Shown: one piece after another, positions 9,736 through 18,806 of the stretch
How positions within the stretch are numbered: position 1 is the stretch's first letter
How the letters are laid out: each line of letters starts with the position of its first letter
Source of the DNA: an uncultured Buttiauxella sp.
GTDB taxonomy: Bacteria; Pseudomonadota; Gammaproteobacteria; Enterobacterales; Enterobacteriaceae
NCBI GenBank assembly: GCA_946480445.1
Contig: CAMLJN010000026.1
Location: forward strand, 1-48,683
Length of the DNA: 48,683 nt
Direction of reading: 5' to 3'
Translations under genes and position numbers: made by a program
Notes under the pieces: generated by a model
Seen by the model: the letters and a program-made list of their open reading frames with translations, nothing else
What the model was told of the DNA's origin: nothing
Database searches by the model: none

Positions 9736-10011
9736 TTATTTTTTTGGGCTTTTTTCCAGGTGCATTTTTAACAAACTTTCTGGCGGCGGAGGCAGCTGTA
9801 AATAATAGCCTTCCTCTTTCAGTGCACTTTTCACTTTTTCAATCTCCGCATTCGCCAGTTTTTTACTGCCGTCGAGGGGTAATATCATCGCAAGCTTAGG
9901 CTCACCAAAACCTTTCAACAATTCTTCAGGGACACGAGAGAAATCGTCTTTTTTTTCGACATAAAGATAAGTCTGGTCACGTTTGCTACTTCTGTAGATC
10001 ACACAAAACAT
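9736..10011 (-). CDS. ycgL: YcgL domain protein
   Basis: 91-residue small cytoplasmic protein of the YcgL (UPF0745) family, found beside minC across gamma-proteobacteria. The N-terminal [32 protein letters not shown] block is almost invariant with E. coli. E. coli YcgL has a slightly longer C terminus. No enzyme motif is visible and the function is unknown. It is divergent from minC across about 125 bp. Confidence 0.93.
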
Positions 10012-10137
10012 TTTTTTTACTCTATTTTCACCGGATGGTGGCTTGCCTGAATATAACTGTGACTATACCATGCTTAATGTACTTCGGAATATCGTCCCAC
10101 AGCCGTGGGGATTGAAACTGAATTGAGTAAGGCCAGG

Positions 10138-10848
10138 ATGTCAAACACGCCAATCGAGTTAAAGGGCAGCAGTTTCACCTTATCAGTGGTTCATTTGCAT
10201 GATGCTCAACCCGAGGTCATTCGCCAGGCGCTTGAGGACAAAATTGCCCAGGCTCCTGCGTTTCTGAAGAATGCCCCGGTGGTTATCAACATTGCCAGCC
10301 TCGATGGTTCCGTAAACTGGAAAAAAGTCCAGCAAGCGGTAGCCGTAACCGGTCTGCGCGTGGTGGGAATCAGCGGCTGTAAAGATGAAGCGTTAAAAAT
10401 TGAAATTGAACGTGCAGGGCTACCGTTATTGTCCGAAGGCAAAGAGAAAGCCCCACGACCCGCCAGGGTTAGTCCTGTAGAACCGGTGGCCGTCGTTGAG
10501 CCAATTGTTAATCCGGTCACAAAAACGCGTTTGATTGACACCCCGGTTCGATCCGGGCAGCGCATTTATGCGCCACACTGTGATTTGATTGTCACTAATC
10601 ACGTCAGCGCCGGAGCGGAGCTGATTGCAGATGGTAACATTCATATTTACGGCATGATGCGCGGCCGAGCCCTGGCGGGTGCAGATGGCTCTCGTGATGC
10701 GCAAATATTTTGTACCAACCTGGTAGCTGAGCTGGTCTCAATAGCGGGTGAATACTGGCTGAGCGATCAAATCCCGGCCGATTATTATGGGAAAGCGGCG
10801 CGCCTGAGTCTCGCGGGCGGCGCGCTTTCCATTCAACCATTAAATTAA
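10138..10848 (+). CDS. minC: Septum site-determining protein MinC
   Basis: FtsZ-polymerisation inhibitor that prevents division near the cell poles; it works as a complex with MinD-ATP at the membrane. The N-terminal domain ([23 protein letters not shown]..., inhibits FtsZ) is joined by a variable Pro/Val-rich linker (residues ~108-126, longer than in E. coli) to the C-terminal beta-helix ([16 protein letters not shown] ... [27 protein letters not shown]), which dimerises and binds MinD. The internal ATG at 10138, after AGGCCAGG, matches the E. coli start; an upstream in-frame ATG at 10105 is not conserved. First gene of minCDE, 24 bp before minD. Confidence 0.96.
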
Positions 10849-10872
10849 GCCCTTTTAACAAGGAATTCCTTT

Positions 10873-11685
10873 ATGGCACGCATTATTGTTGTTACATCGG
10901 GTAAAGGGGGCGTCGGTAAGACCACGTCCAGCGCGGCCATCGCTACGGGGTTGGCCCAGAAGGGAAGAAAAACCGTCGTCATTGATTTCGATATTGGTTT
11001 GCGCAACCTGGATTTAATCATGGGCTGTGAACGCCGCGTGGTCTACGACTTTGTCAACGTAATCCAGGGAGATGCGACGCTCAATCAGGCGCTGATCCGC
11101 GACAAACGCACGGAACAACTTTACATTCTGCCGGCCTCGCAAACCCGTGATAAAGACGCTCTGACGCGCGAAGGCGTGGCCAAAGTGCTCGACGATCTGA
11201 AAAAAATGGATTTCGAGTTTATCGTTTGTGACTCGCCAGCGGGTATCGAGACCGGTGCGCTGATGGCGCTGTACTTCGCAGATGAAGCCATTATCACCAC
11301 TAACCCGGAAGTCTCTTCCGTACGCGACTCAGACCGTATCCTGGGTATTCTGTCTTCTAAATCCCGTCGCGCTGAAAACGGCGAAGACCCGATTAAAGAA
11401 CACCTGCTACTCACCCGCTACAACCCCGGTCGTGTTAACCGCGGCGATATGTTGAGCATGGAAGACGTACTGGAAATTTTGCGCATTCCTCTTGTGGGGG
11501 TTATCCCGGAAGATCAGTCCGTGCTGCGCGCTTCCAACCAGGGCGAACCTGTTATCCTGGATGCAGAAGCAGACGCGGGCCAGGCCTACGCAGATACCGT
11601 TGAACGCCTTCTCGGAGAAGAACGTCCTTTCCGCTTCATTGAAGAAGAGAAGAAAGGTTTCCTCAAACGCCTGTTCGGAGGATAA
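10873..11685 (+). CDS. minD: Septum site-determining ATPase MinD
   Basis: ParA/MinD-family ATPase that cycles on and off the inner membrane, recruiting MinC and oscillating pole to pole under MinE control. It is 270 residues, as in E. coli. The deviant Walker A (GKGGVGKTT, signature K11 and catalytic K16) is at the N terminus; switch residues IDFDIGLRNLDL and CDSPAGIE follow. The C-terminal amphipathic membrane-targeting helix (GFLKRLFGG) is intact. Its stop is 3 bp from the minE ATG, with the minE ribosome site (GGATAAGGA) inside the end of minD, so the two are translationally close. Confidence 0.98.
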   Translation: MARIIVVTSGKGGVGKTTSSAAIATGLAQKGRKTVVIDFDIGLRNLDLIMGCERRVVYDFVNVIQGDATLNQALIRDKRTEQLYILPASQTRDKDALTREGVAKVLDDLKKMDFEFIVCDSPAGIETGALMALYFADEAIITTNPEVSSVRDSDRILGILSSKSRRAENGEDPIKEHLLLTRYNPGRVNRGDMLSMEDVLEILRIPLVGVIPEDQSVLRASNQGEPVILDAEADAGQAYADTVERLLGEERPFRFIEEEKKGFLKRLFGG

Positions 11686-11688
11686 GGA

Positions 11689-11964
11689 ATGGCATTACTA
11701 GACTTTTTTCTCTCACGGAAAAAGAACACCGCGAATATCGCTAAAGAGCGCCTGCAGATTATCGTTGCCGAACGCCGTCGTGGCGACCGCGAGCCGCACT
11801 ATTTGCCGCAGCTAAAACGCGACATTCTGGAAGTGATTTGCAAATATGTGCAAATCGATCCTGATATGTTGACCGTTGTGCTCGATCAGAAAGGCGATGA
11901 TATTTCTGTTCTGGAACTTAACGTTACGTTACCAGAGACCCAGGAAGCACCGAAGTCCGCCTGA
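11689..11964 (+). CDS. minE: Cell division topological specificity factor MinE
   Basis: 91-residue activator of MinD ATPase that forms the E-ring and restricts MinCD to the poles. The N-terminal membrane-binding segment [22 protein letters not shown] and the MinD-binding helix ([14 protein letters not shown]) are identical in pattern to E. coli. The topological-specificity domain follows ([23 protein letters not shown]). Last gene of minCDE; a strong hairpin terminator begins 8 bp after the stop. Confidence 0.97.
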
Positions 11965-11971
11965 TAAAAAT

Positions 11972-12008
11972 AATAAACCCCCTGCTTTATGCAGGGGGTT
12001 TATTTTTA
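11972..12008. terminator. minCDE terminator, bidirectional
   Basis: Perfect 14-bp stem AATAAACCCCCTGC / GCAGGGGGTTTATT with loop TTTAT, followed by TTTT on the plus strand and ATTTTTAT on the minus strand. On the minus strand it directly follows the TAA of the putative micro-ORF at 12006-12068, and could also end rnd transcripts. Confidence 0.93.
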
Positions 12009-12068
12009 TCTGGCTTCACCAGGGGTATATAACTTAAACAAAGACAGGAATAATCCTAATATTACCAC
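12006..12068 (-). CDS. Putative 20-residue hydrophobic peptide downstream of a LexA-like box
   Basis: A GTG-initiated frame encodes MVILGLFLSLFKLYTPGEAR if GTG is read as Met: a hydrophobic first half, one Lys, then a polar tail. A GAGG Shine-Dalgarno-like sequence lies 4 bp upstream, and a strong LexA-like palindrome ends 7 bp upstream of the GTG. The TAA runs directly into the bidirectional minE/rnd terminator. The layout (SOS box, short leader, tiny hydrophobic ORF, terminator, all within about 125 bp) recalls SOS-induced membrane peptides such as TisB or DinQ, but I recognise no homologue. The interval may instead be plain 3' UTR of rnd. There is no direct proof of translation. Confidence 0.35.
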   Translation of the reverse strand: MVILGLFLSLFKLYTPGEAR

Positions 12069-12075
12069 CGCGCCT

Positions 12076-12095
12076 CACTGTATTTATTTACAGTA
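12076..12095. promoter_or_regulatory. LexA (SOS) box-like palindrome between rnd and minE
   Basis: The sequence is CACTGTATTTATTTACAGTA. It keeps CTGT-N8-ACAG exactly and matches the E. coli LexA consensus at 17 of 20 positions with an AT-rich centre. On the minus strand a TTAATA / TAAATA pair with a 17-bp spacer overlaps it, a weak but possible promoter reading toward the micro-ORF. Confidence 0.5.
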
Positions 12096-12109
12096 CCCCA
12101 GACTACTTA

Positions 12110-13237
12110 TTAATACTCCGCCAACAGCGTTTTCAACCTTTCGCCTAATAATTCCCCACGCCAGCCGCTGATTAATTCCGGGGGCGTCGTCAGGGTTTTT
12201 AATTGCCAGTGCGCATTTAGCAGCTGGTTAATCTGACGGCGTGATGCCAGCAGTTCCGCACTTAACCCACTGGTTTCACTGACTTCCTGAACTAAAGCTT
12301 TAATGGCTTTAAACACCTTACGGTAGCCCGGCATATCGACCAGGTTACTTAGCGCAGCCGGCCACTGCTCTTCCGGCAGGGCCTGAGCTTCTGCCACCAG
12401 CGCAATCAGTGTCTTGCCATGAAAGCGAATTTCGCTGCCGCTCAGGCCCAGCTTATCCAGCTCGCCCAAAGATCCTGGCATATAGCGGGCAACCTGCCAG
12501 AGATTCTCCTCACGCACCACAAAGTTAACCGCCATGTCGCGCTCCCGGGCCTTACGTAAGCGCCAGGAAGCCAGCTTCTTCAGGCAGGCCAGTTGACGAG
12601 TGCGCAGCTGCCAGGCGTTGCTGATTTCGCGCCAGGCCTCTTCCGGGTCGAGGACCTCCTGACGGCGATGCGCCATCAGATTGCATTCGTCGAGCGCGGC
12701 CTTCATCCAGCCCGCGGCTTCCGTTTCCGCCATCAGTTTATGAGCGATAGGCAGCAGGTAAAGCACATCCGCCGCCGCGTATTCGCACTGACGTTCGGTC
12801 AGCGGGCGCGCAAGCCAGTCGGTACGGGATTCACTTTTGTCGAGCGCGATACCGGTATAAGCCTCAACGATTGTGGCGAAGCCGCAGGAAAGCGCCCGCC
12901 CGCTGAACGCCGCGAGGATCTGAGTATCTATAAAGGGATCCGGCAACGCACCGAAAGTATTCAGGAACACTTCGAGATCTTCGCTGCCAGCGTGCAGGAA
13001 TTTAATGACGTTGCGATCGGCAAGCAGCGCCTTAAAAGGTGTCCAGTCGCTGATAGTCAGGGGGTCGATAAGGGAAACCTGGTTTGCATCATACAGCTGG
13101 ATCAGCCCCAGCTGCGGATAATAGGTGCGGGTGCGGACAAATTCAGTATCCAGCGCGATGGCTGAAACCTGACGGGCGGCCTGGCAAACCTCGGCCAGCG
13201 CCTCATCGGTAGTAATCATATGGTAGGTCAAATTCAT
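12110..13237 (-). CDS. rnd: Ribonuclease D
   Basis: 3'-5' exoribonuclease that trims tRNA 3' ends and other small RNAs. It is 375 residues, like E. coli RNase D. The DEDD-family exonuclease domain comes first (ALDTEFVRTRTYYPQLGLIQL with the first D/E pair, FLHAGSEDLEVF, and the tyrosine-type ExoIII motif ECRQCEYAAADV-like ERQCEYAAADVLYLLPIA). Two HRDC domains follow (residues ~210-290 and ~295-370). The start ATG at 13237 is preceded by AAGAGAA; the in-frame ATG 63 bp upstream lies inside the preceding hairpin and is rejected. E. coli rnd is reported to use UUG; here the codon is ATG. Confidence 0.95.
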   Translation of the reverse strand: MNLTYHMITTDEALAEVCQAARQVSAIALDTEFVRTRTYYPQLGLIQLYDANQVSLIDPLTISDWTPFKALLADRNVIKFLHAGSEDLEVFLNTFGALPDPFIDTQILAAFSGRALSCGFATIVEAYTGIALDKSESRTDWLARPLTERQCEYAAADVLYLLPIAHKLMAETEAAGWMKAALDECNLMAHRRQEVLDPEEAWREISNAWQLRTRQLACLKKLASWRLRKARERDMAVNFVVREENLWQVARYMPGSLGELDKLGLSGSEIRFHGKTLIALVAEAQALPEEQWPAALSNLVDMPGYRKVFKAIKALVQEVSETSGLSAELLASRRQINQLLNAHWQLKTLTTPPELISGWRGELLGERLKTLLAEY

Positions 13238-13254
13238 TTCTCTTGGTTTGCGCC

Positions 13255-13279
13255 AAAAAAACGCCGGTGAAACCGGCGT
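13255..13279 (-). terminator. Stem-loop plus U7 just upstream of rnd (fadD terminator / rnd leader)
   Basis: The minus strand reads ACGCCGGT-TTC-ACCGGCGT followed by T6-7. It is a classic intrinsic terminator located only 17 bp upstream of the rnd start. In E. coli a similar terminator-like stem and U-run in the rnd leader was reported to be required for rnd translation. Confidence 0.8.
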
Positions 13280-13459
13280 CAGACTGATGACAAACCTCAT
13301 CCATTTGCAAGACGAGCCTCTATCACCAAATAAAAATATGGAAAATCAATACGTTGATTTCCGGCTATCGCCATCCAGAAGGCAAGACCACGCTTTTTTC
13401 CTTCTTCCTTCGTCGGCACTCTCACTGCGGTGAAACCGACGCGAGAGCCACCATCAGGC

Positions 13460-15145
13460 TCAGGCTTTATTGTTGCCTGTCCGGGTCTCTTCGTCACGTA
13501 ATTCTCGTCTTAAAATTTTGCCCACGTTAGATTTTGGCAGCTCTTCGCGGAACTCCACCAGCTTCGGCACTTTATAACCGGTAAGATGGCGGCGACAGAA
13601 GGTCACCAGAGATTCTTCATTTAACGCCGGATCTTTCTTAACCACGAAAATTTTTACCGTTTCGCCGCTCGCCCCGCCCGGCACGCCGACGGCGGCAACT
13701 TCCAGCACGCCCGGATGTTGCATAACCACATCTTCAATTTCGTTCGGATAGACGTTAAAGCCGGACACCAGGATCATGTCTTTTTTACGATCGACGATGC
13801 GCATAAAGCCCTCTTCATCCATCGTCGCTATATCCCCGGTGTGCAGCCAGCCATCCTGGAGTATTTCATCGGTGGCATCCGGTCGCTGCCAGTAACCCAG
13901 CATGACCTGCGGGCCTTTGACACAGAGTTCACCGGGTTCTCCCGCCGGCACTTCATTGCCTTCCTCATCCACCATTTTGACTTCGGTGGAAGGCACAGGA
14001 AGCACGATGCTGCCGCTGTGGTAATCCATATCGTGCGGATTGGCACTCACCAGCGGCGCACACTCCGTCAGGCCATAGCCTTCCAGCAGGAAACGCCCCG
14101 TCAGCTTCTCCCAGCGTTCAGCCACGGCATGCTGCACCGGCATACCGCCACCGGCAGAGAGGTGCAGGCTTGAGAAATCGAGCTGCTGGAATTCTTTATT
14201 GTTCAGCAAGGCGTTGAACAAGGTGTTAACACCCGTCATCGCAGTGAAGGGATATTTCGCCAGTTCTTTTACCAGCCCCGGAATATCACGCGGGTTAGTG
14301 ATCAGCAGGTTTTGCCCGCCCAGCTCGATAAACAGCAGGCAGTTCATGGTCAGGGCGAAGATGTGATAGAGCGGCAGCGCGGTAACAACCAGCTCTTTGC
14401 GTTCGTAGAGCAGCGGGCTATAGGCCGCTCTTACCTGTTCAAGGTTGGCCAGCATATTACGGTGGGTCAGCATGGCACCTTTCGCCACGCCCGTCGTGCC
14501 ACCAGTATATTGCAGGAAGGCGAGATCGGTACTAATGACTTCCGGTTTGATGTACTGCATCCGATAGCCGTTTTGCAATGCCCGGCGAAAAGAGATGGCG
14601 TCCGGCAGATGGTATTTGGGCACCAGGCGCTTGACGTATTTCACCACAAAGTTAACCAGCGTCCCTTTGGCAGCGGAAAGCTGATCGCCCATACGCGTCA
14701 GGATAACGTGTTTAACCTGGGTTTTATCGACCACTTTTTCCAGCGTATGAGCAAAGTTCGACACGATCACAATCGCGCTGGCACCACTGTCATTGAGCTG
14801 ATGCTCCAGCTCGCGCGGGGTATAAAGCGGGTTAACATTCACCACGACCATACCGGCCCGCAGAATGCCAAACAGCGCGACAGGATATTGCAACAGGTTC
14901 GGCATCATCAGGGCGACGCGATCGCCTTTTTGCAGCCCCAACCCTTGTTGCAGATAAGCGGCAAAAGCACGGCTGCGCTCTTCGAGCTTGCGGAAGGTCA
15001 TGACCTCCCCCATATTCATGAACGCGGGCTGGTCGGCATAACGCGCCGTGGCCTGTTCAAACATATCAACCAGGGATTGATAACGATCGGGATTTATCTC
15101 AGCCGCAACGTCGGCCGGGTAGCGGTTAAGCCAAACCTTCTTCAA
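13460..15145 (-). CDS. fadD: Long-chain fatty acid-CoA ligase FadD (TTG start)
   Basis: Activates imported long-chain fatty acids to acyl-CoA at the inner face of the membrane (vectorial acylation with FadL), producing both beta-oxidation substrate and the FadR ligand. The AMP-binding motif [12 protein letters not shown], and the FACS motif around [25 protein letters not shown], are intact. I chose the TTG at 15145: it follows AGAGGTGA at 4-bp spacing and gives exactly 561 residues starting [13 protein letters not shown], as in E. coli. An ATG 66 bp upstream extends the frame without a ribosome site. A FadR box lies 73 bp upstream of the TTG. Confidence 0.96.
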
Positions 15146-16766: not shown

Positions 16767-18677
16767 TTACTGCCTCGGCAGGCCGTTAAGGAAGTCGACT
16801 GCCCGATTTATGTCCCGCGTACGCGGCGTGGGCGGCAGACTATTCAGGAAGACGGAGCCGTAAGGACGCATGACCAGACGATTGTCGCAGATAACCAGTA
16901 CCCCCCTGTCATCCACGTCGCGGATTAAGCGTCCCACGCCCTGCTTGAGCGCGATCACCGCATCAGGAAGCTGGACGTCGTCGAACGGTTCTCCACCGCG
17001 AATGCGGCAGTCTTCCATGCGTGCTTTAAGCAGCGGATCGTCCGGGGAAGTAAACGGCAGCTTGTCGATAATCACCAGTGACAGGGCATCACCACGTACG
17101 TCCACCCCTTCCCAGAAGCTGCTGGTTGCCACCAGTAGCGCATTCCCGGCGCTGACAAACTGCTCCAGAAGCTGGCCTTTGCTGGTTTCACCCTGCAATA
17201 AAACCGGCAGCGTCATACTGGCCCGGAACTGTTCGGCCAGCTCACGCATCATGGCATGGGAGGTGCACAGCATAAAACAGCGGCCGTTGTTGGCCTCAAT
17301 CAACGGCTGGAGCATTTTTGCCAGATGGCGAGCGGCGTGGGGCTGGTTAGGCGCAGGTAACCCGCGCGGCACGCAGAGCAGCGCCTGAGTCGCATAGTCA
17401 AAGGGGCTGGCCAGCAACAGCGTGCGGGCATCGTCAATGCCGAGCCGATCGGTAAAGTGGCTTAGCTTATCGTTAACCGAAAGCGTGGCCGAGGTGAAAA
17501 TCCAGGTTCCTGCTTTCTGGGCGATCGCTTCTTTGAATTTGTCCGCCACCGACAGCGGCGTAAGCGCAAGGGTAAAATGCCGGGAATTACATTCGTACCA
17601 GTAGCTGTAACCCGGCTGATTGACATCTTTTAATCGTTTGATACGGCCGCGATAAATCACCGCCCTTTCGAAGGCGGCATCGAGCAGCGCCGAACGCCCG
17701 AGAGAAAGTTTTGCCACGTCGTAGCAAAGTTCCAGTGCATCGTCCAGCAGCACTAATGCGCGCTGGATAGCCGGCTGAGCAAGCAGCTCGCGCAGGTTCC
17801 CGCGATAGCCCGGATCGCCAAGCTGCAGACGGAAATCCTGGGTGCTTTGCGCCAGGCGATCGGCGCTTTTTTGCAGCTGCTGGGCATCGCGCACCTCGGT
17901 GCGGTAAGCGATGGAAATATCTTTGGCGAGATCCAGCAGCTGGCGGCTGGAGACGGACTGACCAAAATACTGGCTGGCAATATCCGGGATCTGGTGGGCC
18001 TCATCGAAGATCATCACTTCGGCCTCCGGGATAAGCTCCGCAAAACCGCTCTCTTTCACCACCATATCCGCAAGAAACAGGTGATGGTTTACCACCACCA
18101 CATCCGCGTCCATCGCTTTTTTACGGGCTTTGACCACGAAACAGTCCTTATAGAGCGGGCAATCCTGCCCCAGGCAGTTATCGTTGGTGCTGGTCACCAG
18201 CGGCCAGACCGTGGAATCTTCCGCGACGTTGGTGCAGGCGCTGATATCGCCATCCACCGCCTCGATAGCCCAGCTACGCAGCTGGATAACTTCGCTCAGG
18301 GTTTGCACCGGCAGATCGCCGCCCGCCAGCGCCTGCTGCTCAAGCCGCTCCAGACAGAGGTAGTTCGAACGCCCTTTCAGCAAAGCGAGACGGCCTTTGA
18401 AGCCAAGCGCCTTCGCCACGGTTGGCAGATCGCGGGCATAGAGCTGATCCTGAAGCGCCTTCGAGCCGGTAGAGATAATGACTTTTTTACCCGAACGCAG
18501 CGCAGGGGCAAGATAGGCATAGGTTTTCCCGGTCCCGGTACCGGCTTCCACCACCAGCTCTCGCCCGTCGGTAATGGCCTGGGTGACGGCCTGCGCCATT
18601 TCTCGCTGCGGTTCACGCGGTTTAAAGCCCGGTATCGCCAGCGCAAGCTGACCGTCTGCTGCAAAATCGTCCGTCAC
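16767..18677 (-). CDS. yoaA: DinG/XPD-family helicase YoaA
   Basis: 636-residue iron-sulfur superfamily 2 helicase, same length as E. coli YoaA. YoaA pairs with the chi subunit (HolC) of DNA polymerase III to help clear damaged replication forks. Walker A is EAGTGTGKTYAYLAPA (about 45-60), the DEAH box is IFDEAH, and the helicase C-terminal motifs include GVGRLIRDVDDRGVLVICDNR. Candidate FeS ligands are C108, C168, C173 and C179 (NCLGQDCPLYKDC), as in XPD/DinG. It is divergent from yoaB, and 70 bp separates its stop from the tsaB start. Confidence 0.95.
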   Translation of the reverse strand: MTDDFAADGQLALAIPGFKPREPQREMAQAVTQAITDGRELVVEAGTGTGKTYAYLAPALRSGKKVIISTGSKALQDQLYARDLPTVAKALGFKGRLALLKGRSNYLCLERLEQQALAGGDLPVQTLSEVIQLRSWAIEAVDGDISACTNVAEDSTVWPLVTSTNDNCLGQDCPLYKDCFVVKARKKAMDADVVVVNHHLFLADMVVKESGFAELIPEAEVMIFDEAHQIPDIASQYFGQSVSSRQLLDLAKDISIAYRTEVRDAQQLQKSADRLAQSTQDFRLQLGDPGYRGNLRELLAQPAIQRALVLLDDALELCYDVAKLSLGRSALLDAAFERAVIYRGRIKRLKDVNQPGYSYWYECNSRHFTLALTPLSVADKFKEAIAQKAGTWIFTSATLSVNDKLSHFTDRLGIDDARTLLLASPFDYATQALLCVPRGLPAPNQPHAARHLAKMLQPLIEANNGRCFMLCTSHAMMRELAEQFRASMTLPVLLQGETSKGQLLEQFVSAGNALLVATSSFWEGVDVRGDALSLVIIDKLPFTSPDDPLLKARMEDCRIRGGEPFDDVQLPDAVIALKQGVGRLIRDVDDRGVLVICDNRLVMRPYGSVFLNSLPPTPRTRDINRAVDFLNGLPRQ

Positions 18678-18806
18678 ATTACCCCCTGGATATATTGCCA
18701 GTGATTATGTCAGCCTCGGGAGTGTTAATCCAGCAAGCAGGTGGAAGCCAAATCGCGATTATGGCAGTCTGTTGGCAAAATTAAGCCCGTTGATAAGGAA
18801 AGAGTC

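Follow-up and report, generated by a model that had tools for sequence, protein, structure and literature searches.

The palindrome at 12076-12095 of the window (the whole stretch of 48,683 nucleotides that was analysed) is very likely a real operator, predicted from its letters to bind LexA, and it lies in the gap on which minCDE and rnd converge. We tentatively favour the explanation, to which we give somewhat less than an even chance, that it represses a short non-coding stress transcript, probably antisense to rnd. As the likeliest mechanism, LexA would govern the synthesis of a short non-coding RNA, probably one running towards rnd. LexA would bind 12076-12095 in the minCDE/rnd gap and would repress a short stress transcript without a conserved peptide; DNA damage would remove LexA and the transcript would be made, most likely on the plus (minE) strand from a putative promoter and into the 3' end of rnd, where it may act in cis on rnd, either as an antisense RNA or through transcriptional interference. 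The features involved are, in window coordinates:

11689-11964, plus strand: minE (Pfam MinE, PF03776).
11972-12004, both strands: bidirectional intrinsic terminator common to minE and rnd, seen in the sequence.
12006-12068, minus strand: GTG-started 20-codon ORF with GAGG upstream, peptide VVILGLFLSLFKLYTPGEAR, judged very likely not a gene.
12045-12058, minus-strand reading TAGGATTATTCCTG: weak RcsB-box-like palindrome inside that ORF, without the 23-nt promoter geometry.
12076-12095, strand not applicable: LexA-operator-like palindrome (SOS box) CACTGTATTTATTTACAGTA, core CTGT-N8-ACAG at 12078-12093.
12087-12114, plus strand: candidate promoter, with a -35-like TTTACA inside the box and, after 16 nt, ATTAAT at the rnd stop, which would give RNA antisense to rnd.
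12110-13219, minus strand: rnd (RNase D; Pfam DNA_pol_A_exo1, HRDC, RNAseD_HRDC_C), converging on the box.
16767-18677, minus strand: DinG/YoaA-like (yoaA-like) helicase gene with a LexA-like box ahead of it.

The palindrome CACTGTATTTATTTACAGTA lies 14 bp beyond the rnd stop codon and agrees with the ideal LexA box at 17 of 20 positions (three mismatches), being the sole match of such quality in the window and one that none of 100 window shuffles reaches. It scores 23.6 with a PWM of E. coli sites and 26.5 with a native PWM made from 12 boxes of the window's genome, for not all of which an SOS gene was recognised and which themselves span 11.1-29.1. The LexA-like palindrome of the original prediction is thus present and scores inside the range of the native boxes. 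The same prediction had warned that CTGT-N8-ACAG arises by chance, and rightly: the core occurs once in the window at a chance expectation of 0.43, and since 34 of 100 window shuffles hold at least one, it is by itself no proof. Those shuffles are what speaks for a chance palindrome without function, which conservation and the fit to LexA leave as the least credible of the explanations considered here.

A lexA gene was found in the window's genome, and the W-rich motif CTGK-N-W6-N-MCAG occurs there 17 times, versus once for a reversed control. Near LexA-type boxes of this genome lie genes that we take, from their protein starts, to be recA, sulA, umuDC, dinI-like, yebG and uvrD; among the 20 stretches inspected, several other motif sites are in or near genes without a known SOS role. 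Three dinI-like genes have a strong LexA box nearby (L171, L174 and L179, at C1:342025, C5:148519 and C15:59476 of the window's genome), the box of L171 being about 250 bp from its gene. A LexA-like sequence in the window, CTGGATATATTGCCAG at 18686-18701, stands 8 bp ahead of the listed GTG of the DinG/YoaA-like helicase gene; yoaA of E. coli is a LexA target.

Turning to relatives, CTGT-N8-ACAG is kept in the minE-rnd gap of all five other same-genus genomes scanned (L031, L032, L033, L074 and L005) and also in G007. We gathered 142 loci (the window, 80 named loci, 60 further loci and L005), of which 118 are distinct after dropping identical 140-nt stretches; the sample is non-random, with the named loci being the best 80 matches and the further ones, near and distant, coming from 120 places taken mostly from the top down out of 199 genomes with a match. 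CTG-N10-CAG is present near the rnd stop, at -16 to +61, in 43 of the 118 distinct loci (shuffles: mean 1.5, maximum 6). Aligning relatives therefore bears out the palindrome, and the proposal that something at this site is under SOS/LexA control, with binding predicted from sequence, is well supported by its conservation. Control windows contain the motif in 3/82, 2/82, 0/112 and 3/118 loci, and those in or near the minE coding sequence in 29/118 at +160 and 8/118 at +240, the last two counts being high probably because of palindromes of the ATCTGnACATAnTTACAGAT class, a second class located within the minE coding sequence that was dropped.

The box is found in 28 of the 80 named loci, belonging to Dryocola, Cedecea, Buttiauxella (four of five), Entomohabitans, Franconibacter, Siccibacter, Kosakonia and Phytobacter, alongside three from Atlantibacter and five from strains carrying the Enterobacter label. 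The named loci of E. coli, Salmonella, Citrobacter, Klebsiella, Raoultella, Kluyvera and Lelliottia gave no box, and neither did nine loci labelled Enterobacter; in two E. coli records minE and rnd are not adjacent, and neither 3' flank holds the box. A quick tree of 82 Rnd protein rows places Dryocola boscaweniae, Enterobacter sp. R1(2018) and Cedecea colo nearest to the window among named relatives; on it the box trait changes five times with Atlantibacter uncounted, or six times with Atlantibacter as a third state, compared with a shuffled mean above 22. On this tree, rooted at the midpoint only, the pattern would fit an old element that was lost more than once, and Buttiauxella sp. A111 shows one apparent loss. 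In three loci of one genus (L120, L121 and L129), the stretch from the rnd stop to the terminator contains two LexA-like boxes, spaced by 31 bp.

Across the near-set loci the distance from the rnd stop to the first box is -3 to +34 nt, a position that would also suit a hairpin in the 3'-terminal part of the rnd mRNA in place of a LexA site, and some copies do fold well, at -8 to -12.4 kcal/mol. We consider such a hairpin improbable, with 9 of 46 box copies folding with less than 2 kcal/mol, LexA-type letters being kept, and no covariation across the palindrome beyond that of shuffles (pairs formed in 27, 32, 22 and 8 of 42 boxes versus shuffled means of 28.1, 33.4, 23.7 and 11.7). The box set comprises 46 boxes in 43 loci, and the LexA-score and pairing statistics use 42 of them, four of Atlantibacter type being left out; CTG and CAG are fixed by the search design, so their invariance is no evidence. 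Mean LexA scores are 17.8 with both PWMs and fall to 10.7 and 8.2 after shuffling of the inner and outer letters, with none of 2000 shuffles scoring as high, and the central TA is identical in 46/46 boxes, from loci that are related to one another. A T-run follows the palindrome, making it a terminator, solely in 4/43 loci (three Atlantibacter and G089), and an RNA hairpin or intrinsic terminator class for the box was disfavoured on this ground and on the lack of covariation. With LexA-type letters and no covariation of its halves, the box looks like a DNA operator and not an RNA hairpin.

Downstream of the box, on the minus strand, the original prediction had placed an SOS-controlled micro-gene of the TisB/DinQ layout, ending at a strong bidirectional terminator. 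The terminator was found at 11972-12004, and the letters of the ORF are all present: a GTG start 7 bp from the box, 20 aa at 12068-12006, GAGG upstream, and a peptide, VVILGLFLSLFKLYTPGEAR, that is hydrophobic and compact. Shuffling the segment yields an SD core plus an ORF of 18 aa or more in 1.5% of cases (27% when no SD is required), by a criterion that was picked after the ORF had been seen. We compared by eye ORFs of at least 10 aa and up to 60 aa that start at most 60 nt from each box, at most six per locus. In the box-bearing loci other than the window, among them those of the five further same-genus genomes, nothing resembled VVILGLFLSLFKLYTPGEAR and no common ORF emerged. Conservation of the reading frame therefore fails in relatives, and the frame is refuted by that test. 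Space is short as well: in 31 of 43 loci a crude scan finds the box followed at 11-98 nt by a terminator-like hairpin, in the other 12 it finds none (some larger distances may skip a nearer hairpin), and the distance from box to terminator is at most 20 nt in 13 of the 31 measured loci.

The claim of a micro-gene does not survive these comparisons, nor does the TisB/DinQ-type layout, for which no conserved small hydrophobic ORF was found, and judging from the sequences compared the peptide gene at 12068-12006 is very likely not real. A LexA-controlled 20-residue membrane peptide similar to TisB or DinQ could exist here only as a species-specific novelty, which we regard as highly improbable: the low chance of such an ORF with an SD core and its hydrophobic, compact product speak for it, and the GTG start, the missing relatives and the scant room between box and terminator in many relatives speak against it. 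As the ORF is not conserved, a short non-coding transcript made between minE and rnd is the more likely target of the site.

With respect to the direction of this transcript, the candidate plus-strand promoter at 12087-12114 scores 6.6, second on the plus strand of the window after 6.8 elsewhere, and in L031, L032 and L074 the TTTACA inside the box is followed at 17-18 nt by AATAAT, with scores of 9.9, 10.9 and 10.9. Sigma-70 promoters around near-clade boxes show no excess over shuffles (mean p 0.48 and 0.53 on the two strands; p <0.1 in 5 and 3 of 46). A positional promoter test gives z 4.9 on the rnd strand and z 4.5 on the minE strand (95% lines 3.2 and 3.4), and with peaks on both strands the direction is not fixed; promoter scans of both strands likewise give no consistent direction.

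The operator might instead repress a short non-coding RNA on the minus strand, about 45-140 nt long, that would start at the box, stop at the terminator shared by the two genes and be antisense to the minE 3' UTR. The positional peak on the rnd strand argues for this arrangement, as do a TATAAT- or AATAAT-like hexamer that most boxes contain in the rnd-strand reading, a TTGACA-17-AATAAA match on the rnd strand of Cedecea colo (p 0.005), and the terminator-like hairpin found 11-98 nt past the box on the rnd strand in 31/43 loci by the crude scan. We nevertheless hold a minus-strand RNA to be somewhat unlikely, since no conserved -35 was found on the rnd strand of near-clade boxes, little but the terminator would be transcribed in the 13/31 loci with 11-20 nt between box and hairpin, and the conserved RcsB-type promoter of distant genera (below) has the opposite direction. 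That no clear promoter was seen on either strand in the near clade is also consistent with a LexA-bound site without a promoter of its own, which could act as a roadblock where the two genes converge or be a relic, the operator of an SOS unit that has since disappeared. A stop-signal role fits the 4/43 loci in which the palindrome is a T-run terminator, and several distant boxes directly abut a minE hairpin without a clear T-run; a relic is expected to decay, yet the box outlives most of its surroundings across many genera, and we rate a promoterless site as unlikely.

A second kind of evidence for transcription into rnd comes from distant genera, for which we gathered 68 loci (L163-L170 and L194-L253), with minE recognised in the fetched stretch in 47. 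A LexA box scoring at least 12 is present in the minE-rnd gap of 24 of these 47 (shuffles: mean 0.07, maximum 1). Its distance from the minE stop is 40-69 nt in 20 loci and 110-210 nt in the rest. It lies 113-266 nt from the rnd stop, versus -3 to +34 in the near set, and homology of the two arrangements is not implied. On the minE strand, T[AG][AG]GA-N4-TC[TC]CA followed after exactly 23 nt by TAnnnT occurs in 17 of the 24 loci that have a LexA box and in none of the 23 that lack one; the pattern was found on the rnd strand of no distant locus, and in no shuffle. The 17 loci represent nine genera (e.g., L204, L201, L207 and L252), and gaps with both LexA and RcsB-type sites measure 235-381 bp. 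Scanning the spacing behind the 17 palindromes gives a mean -10 score of 4.25 at 23 nt versus 0.56 at the next best. The strict palindrome was read by eye in the same loci where it was later counted, so the shuffle comparison is optimistic, and the 23-nt spacing emerged from a scan of spacings, its independent support being the same spacing at rprA.

RprA is described as an RcsB-activated small RNA (PMC5651002). The same palindrome type and 23-nt spacing, in a slightly looser pattern, stand ahead of RprA in 11/12 genomes tested, the window's own included, with RprA above the Rfam cut-off in 8/12. From this likeness we read the distant pattern as an RcsB-type promoter pointing into rnd, with the LexA box 38-75 nt upstream of the RcsB box and not over the promoter. 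That the gap RNA is RprA itself was rejected, RprA being located elsewhere in the 12 genomes searched, and an Rfam search of 20 distant loci gave six matches, all below gathering scores. Alifold found no common structure on either strand of the 17 distant loci, with only weak or terminator-like stems in subgroups; from the lack of a common fold downstream we infer that antisense action or interference suits better than a trans-acting RNA. At L204, L224, L227 and similar loci, the LexA box sits right against a minE hairpin that has no clear T-run, and LexA might there help to stop minE transcription.

In the window, the weak palindrome TAGGATTATTCCTG resembles rprA boxes such as TAGGATAATTCTTA. 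The strict RcsB pattern (palindrome-23-TAnnnT) was found in 0/112 near-set loci, the window among them, and RcsB-like palindromes of Cedecea, Entomohabitans and Atlantibacter were set aside with the strict 23-nt pattern not found. A relaxed pattern with 22-nt spacing gives a hint in the near set, where it occurs in 7/112 loci. In six of these (four from Buttiauxella, two from genomes of a single genus) the LexA box comes shortly after it, and the seventh, from a Citrobacter, has no box. An Rfam search of window positions 10000-14000 returned only two matches, both to sroD on the minus strand and both sub-threshold (13255-13330 and 13418-13501; 32.2 and 24.1 bits against a gathering score of 50), near or upstream of the rnd start and possibly a tandem pair.

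Several results count against LexA control of a short transcript antisense to rnd: the null promoter scan, the positional peaks on two strands and the missing strict RcsB promoter in the near set, as well as a distant LexA box that lies off the RcsB promoter, a fold that is not conserved, and model genera without the box. A wider reading, which we regard as doubtful, is that the minE-rnd gap has since ancient times integrated stress signals in the Enterobacteriaceae (in the GTDB sense). A LexA operator, joined in many genera by an RcsB-activated promoter, would govern antisense transcription across rnd, and through it both DNA damage and envelope stress would adjust the tRNA-maturing nuclease RNase D from the 3' end of its gene. 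If that reading is true, the locus would have been overlooked because the model genera are without it, and a literature search of titles and abstract openings returned no paper evidently about the minE-rnd locus. The SOS regulon would gain a conserved target without an evident protein, one that the E. coli and Salmonella loci analysed here lack; in distant genera, LexA and RcsB-type sites in one gap would join the DNA-damage and envelope-stress responses, and two stress responses would meet beside division-site genes and an RNase.

Compared with the LexA operators of recA, sulA, umuDC, dinI, yebG, uvrD and yoaA, the window box has the same palindrome, spacing and score range; it differs from the operators of SOS genes in its place at a gene 3' end between convergent genes, with no conserved protein gene after it. 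TisB/IstR and DinQ are SOS peptide systems, small LexA-controlled units in an intergenic gap, and the minE-rnd gap is alike in holding a small LexA-type unit, but without a conserved peptide. The distant-genus gaps share with the rprA promoter, in 11/12 rprA loci, a -10-like hexamer that follows an RcsB-type palindrome at 23 nt, whereas the strict form is absent from the window and the near set, and the gap unit is not RprA. Regulatory antisense RNAs at convergent gene ends form a general class, and a plus-strand transcript over the rnd 3' end, here predicted from sequence, would resemble its members.
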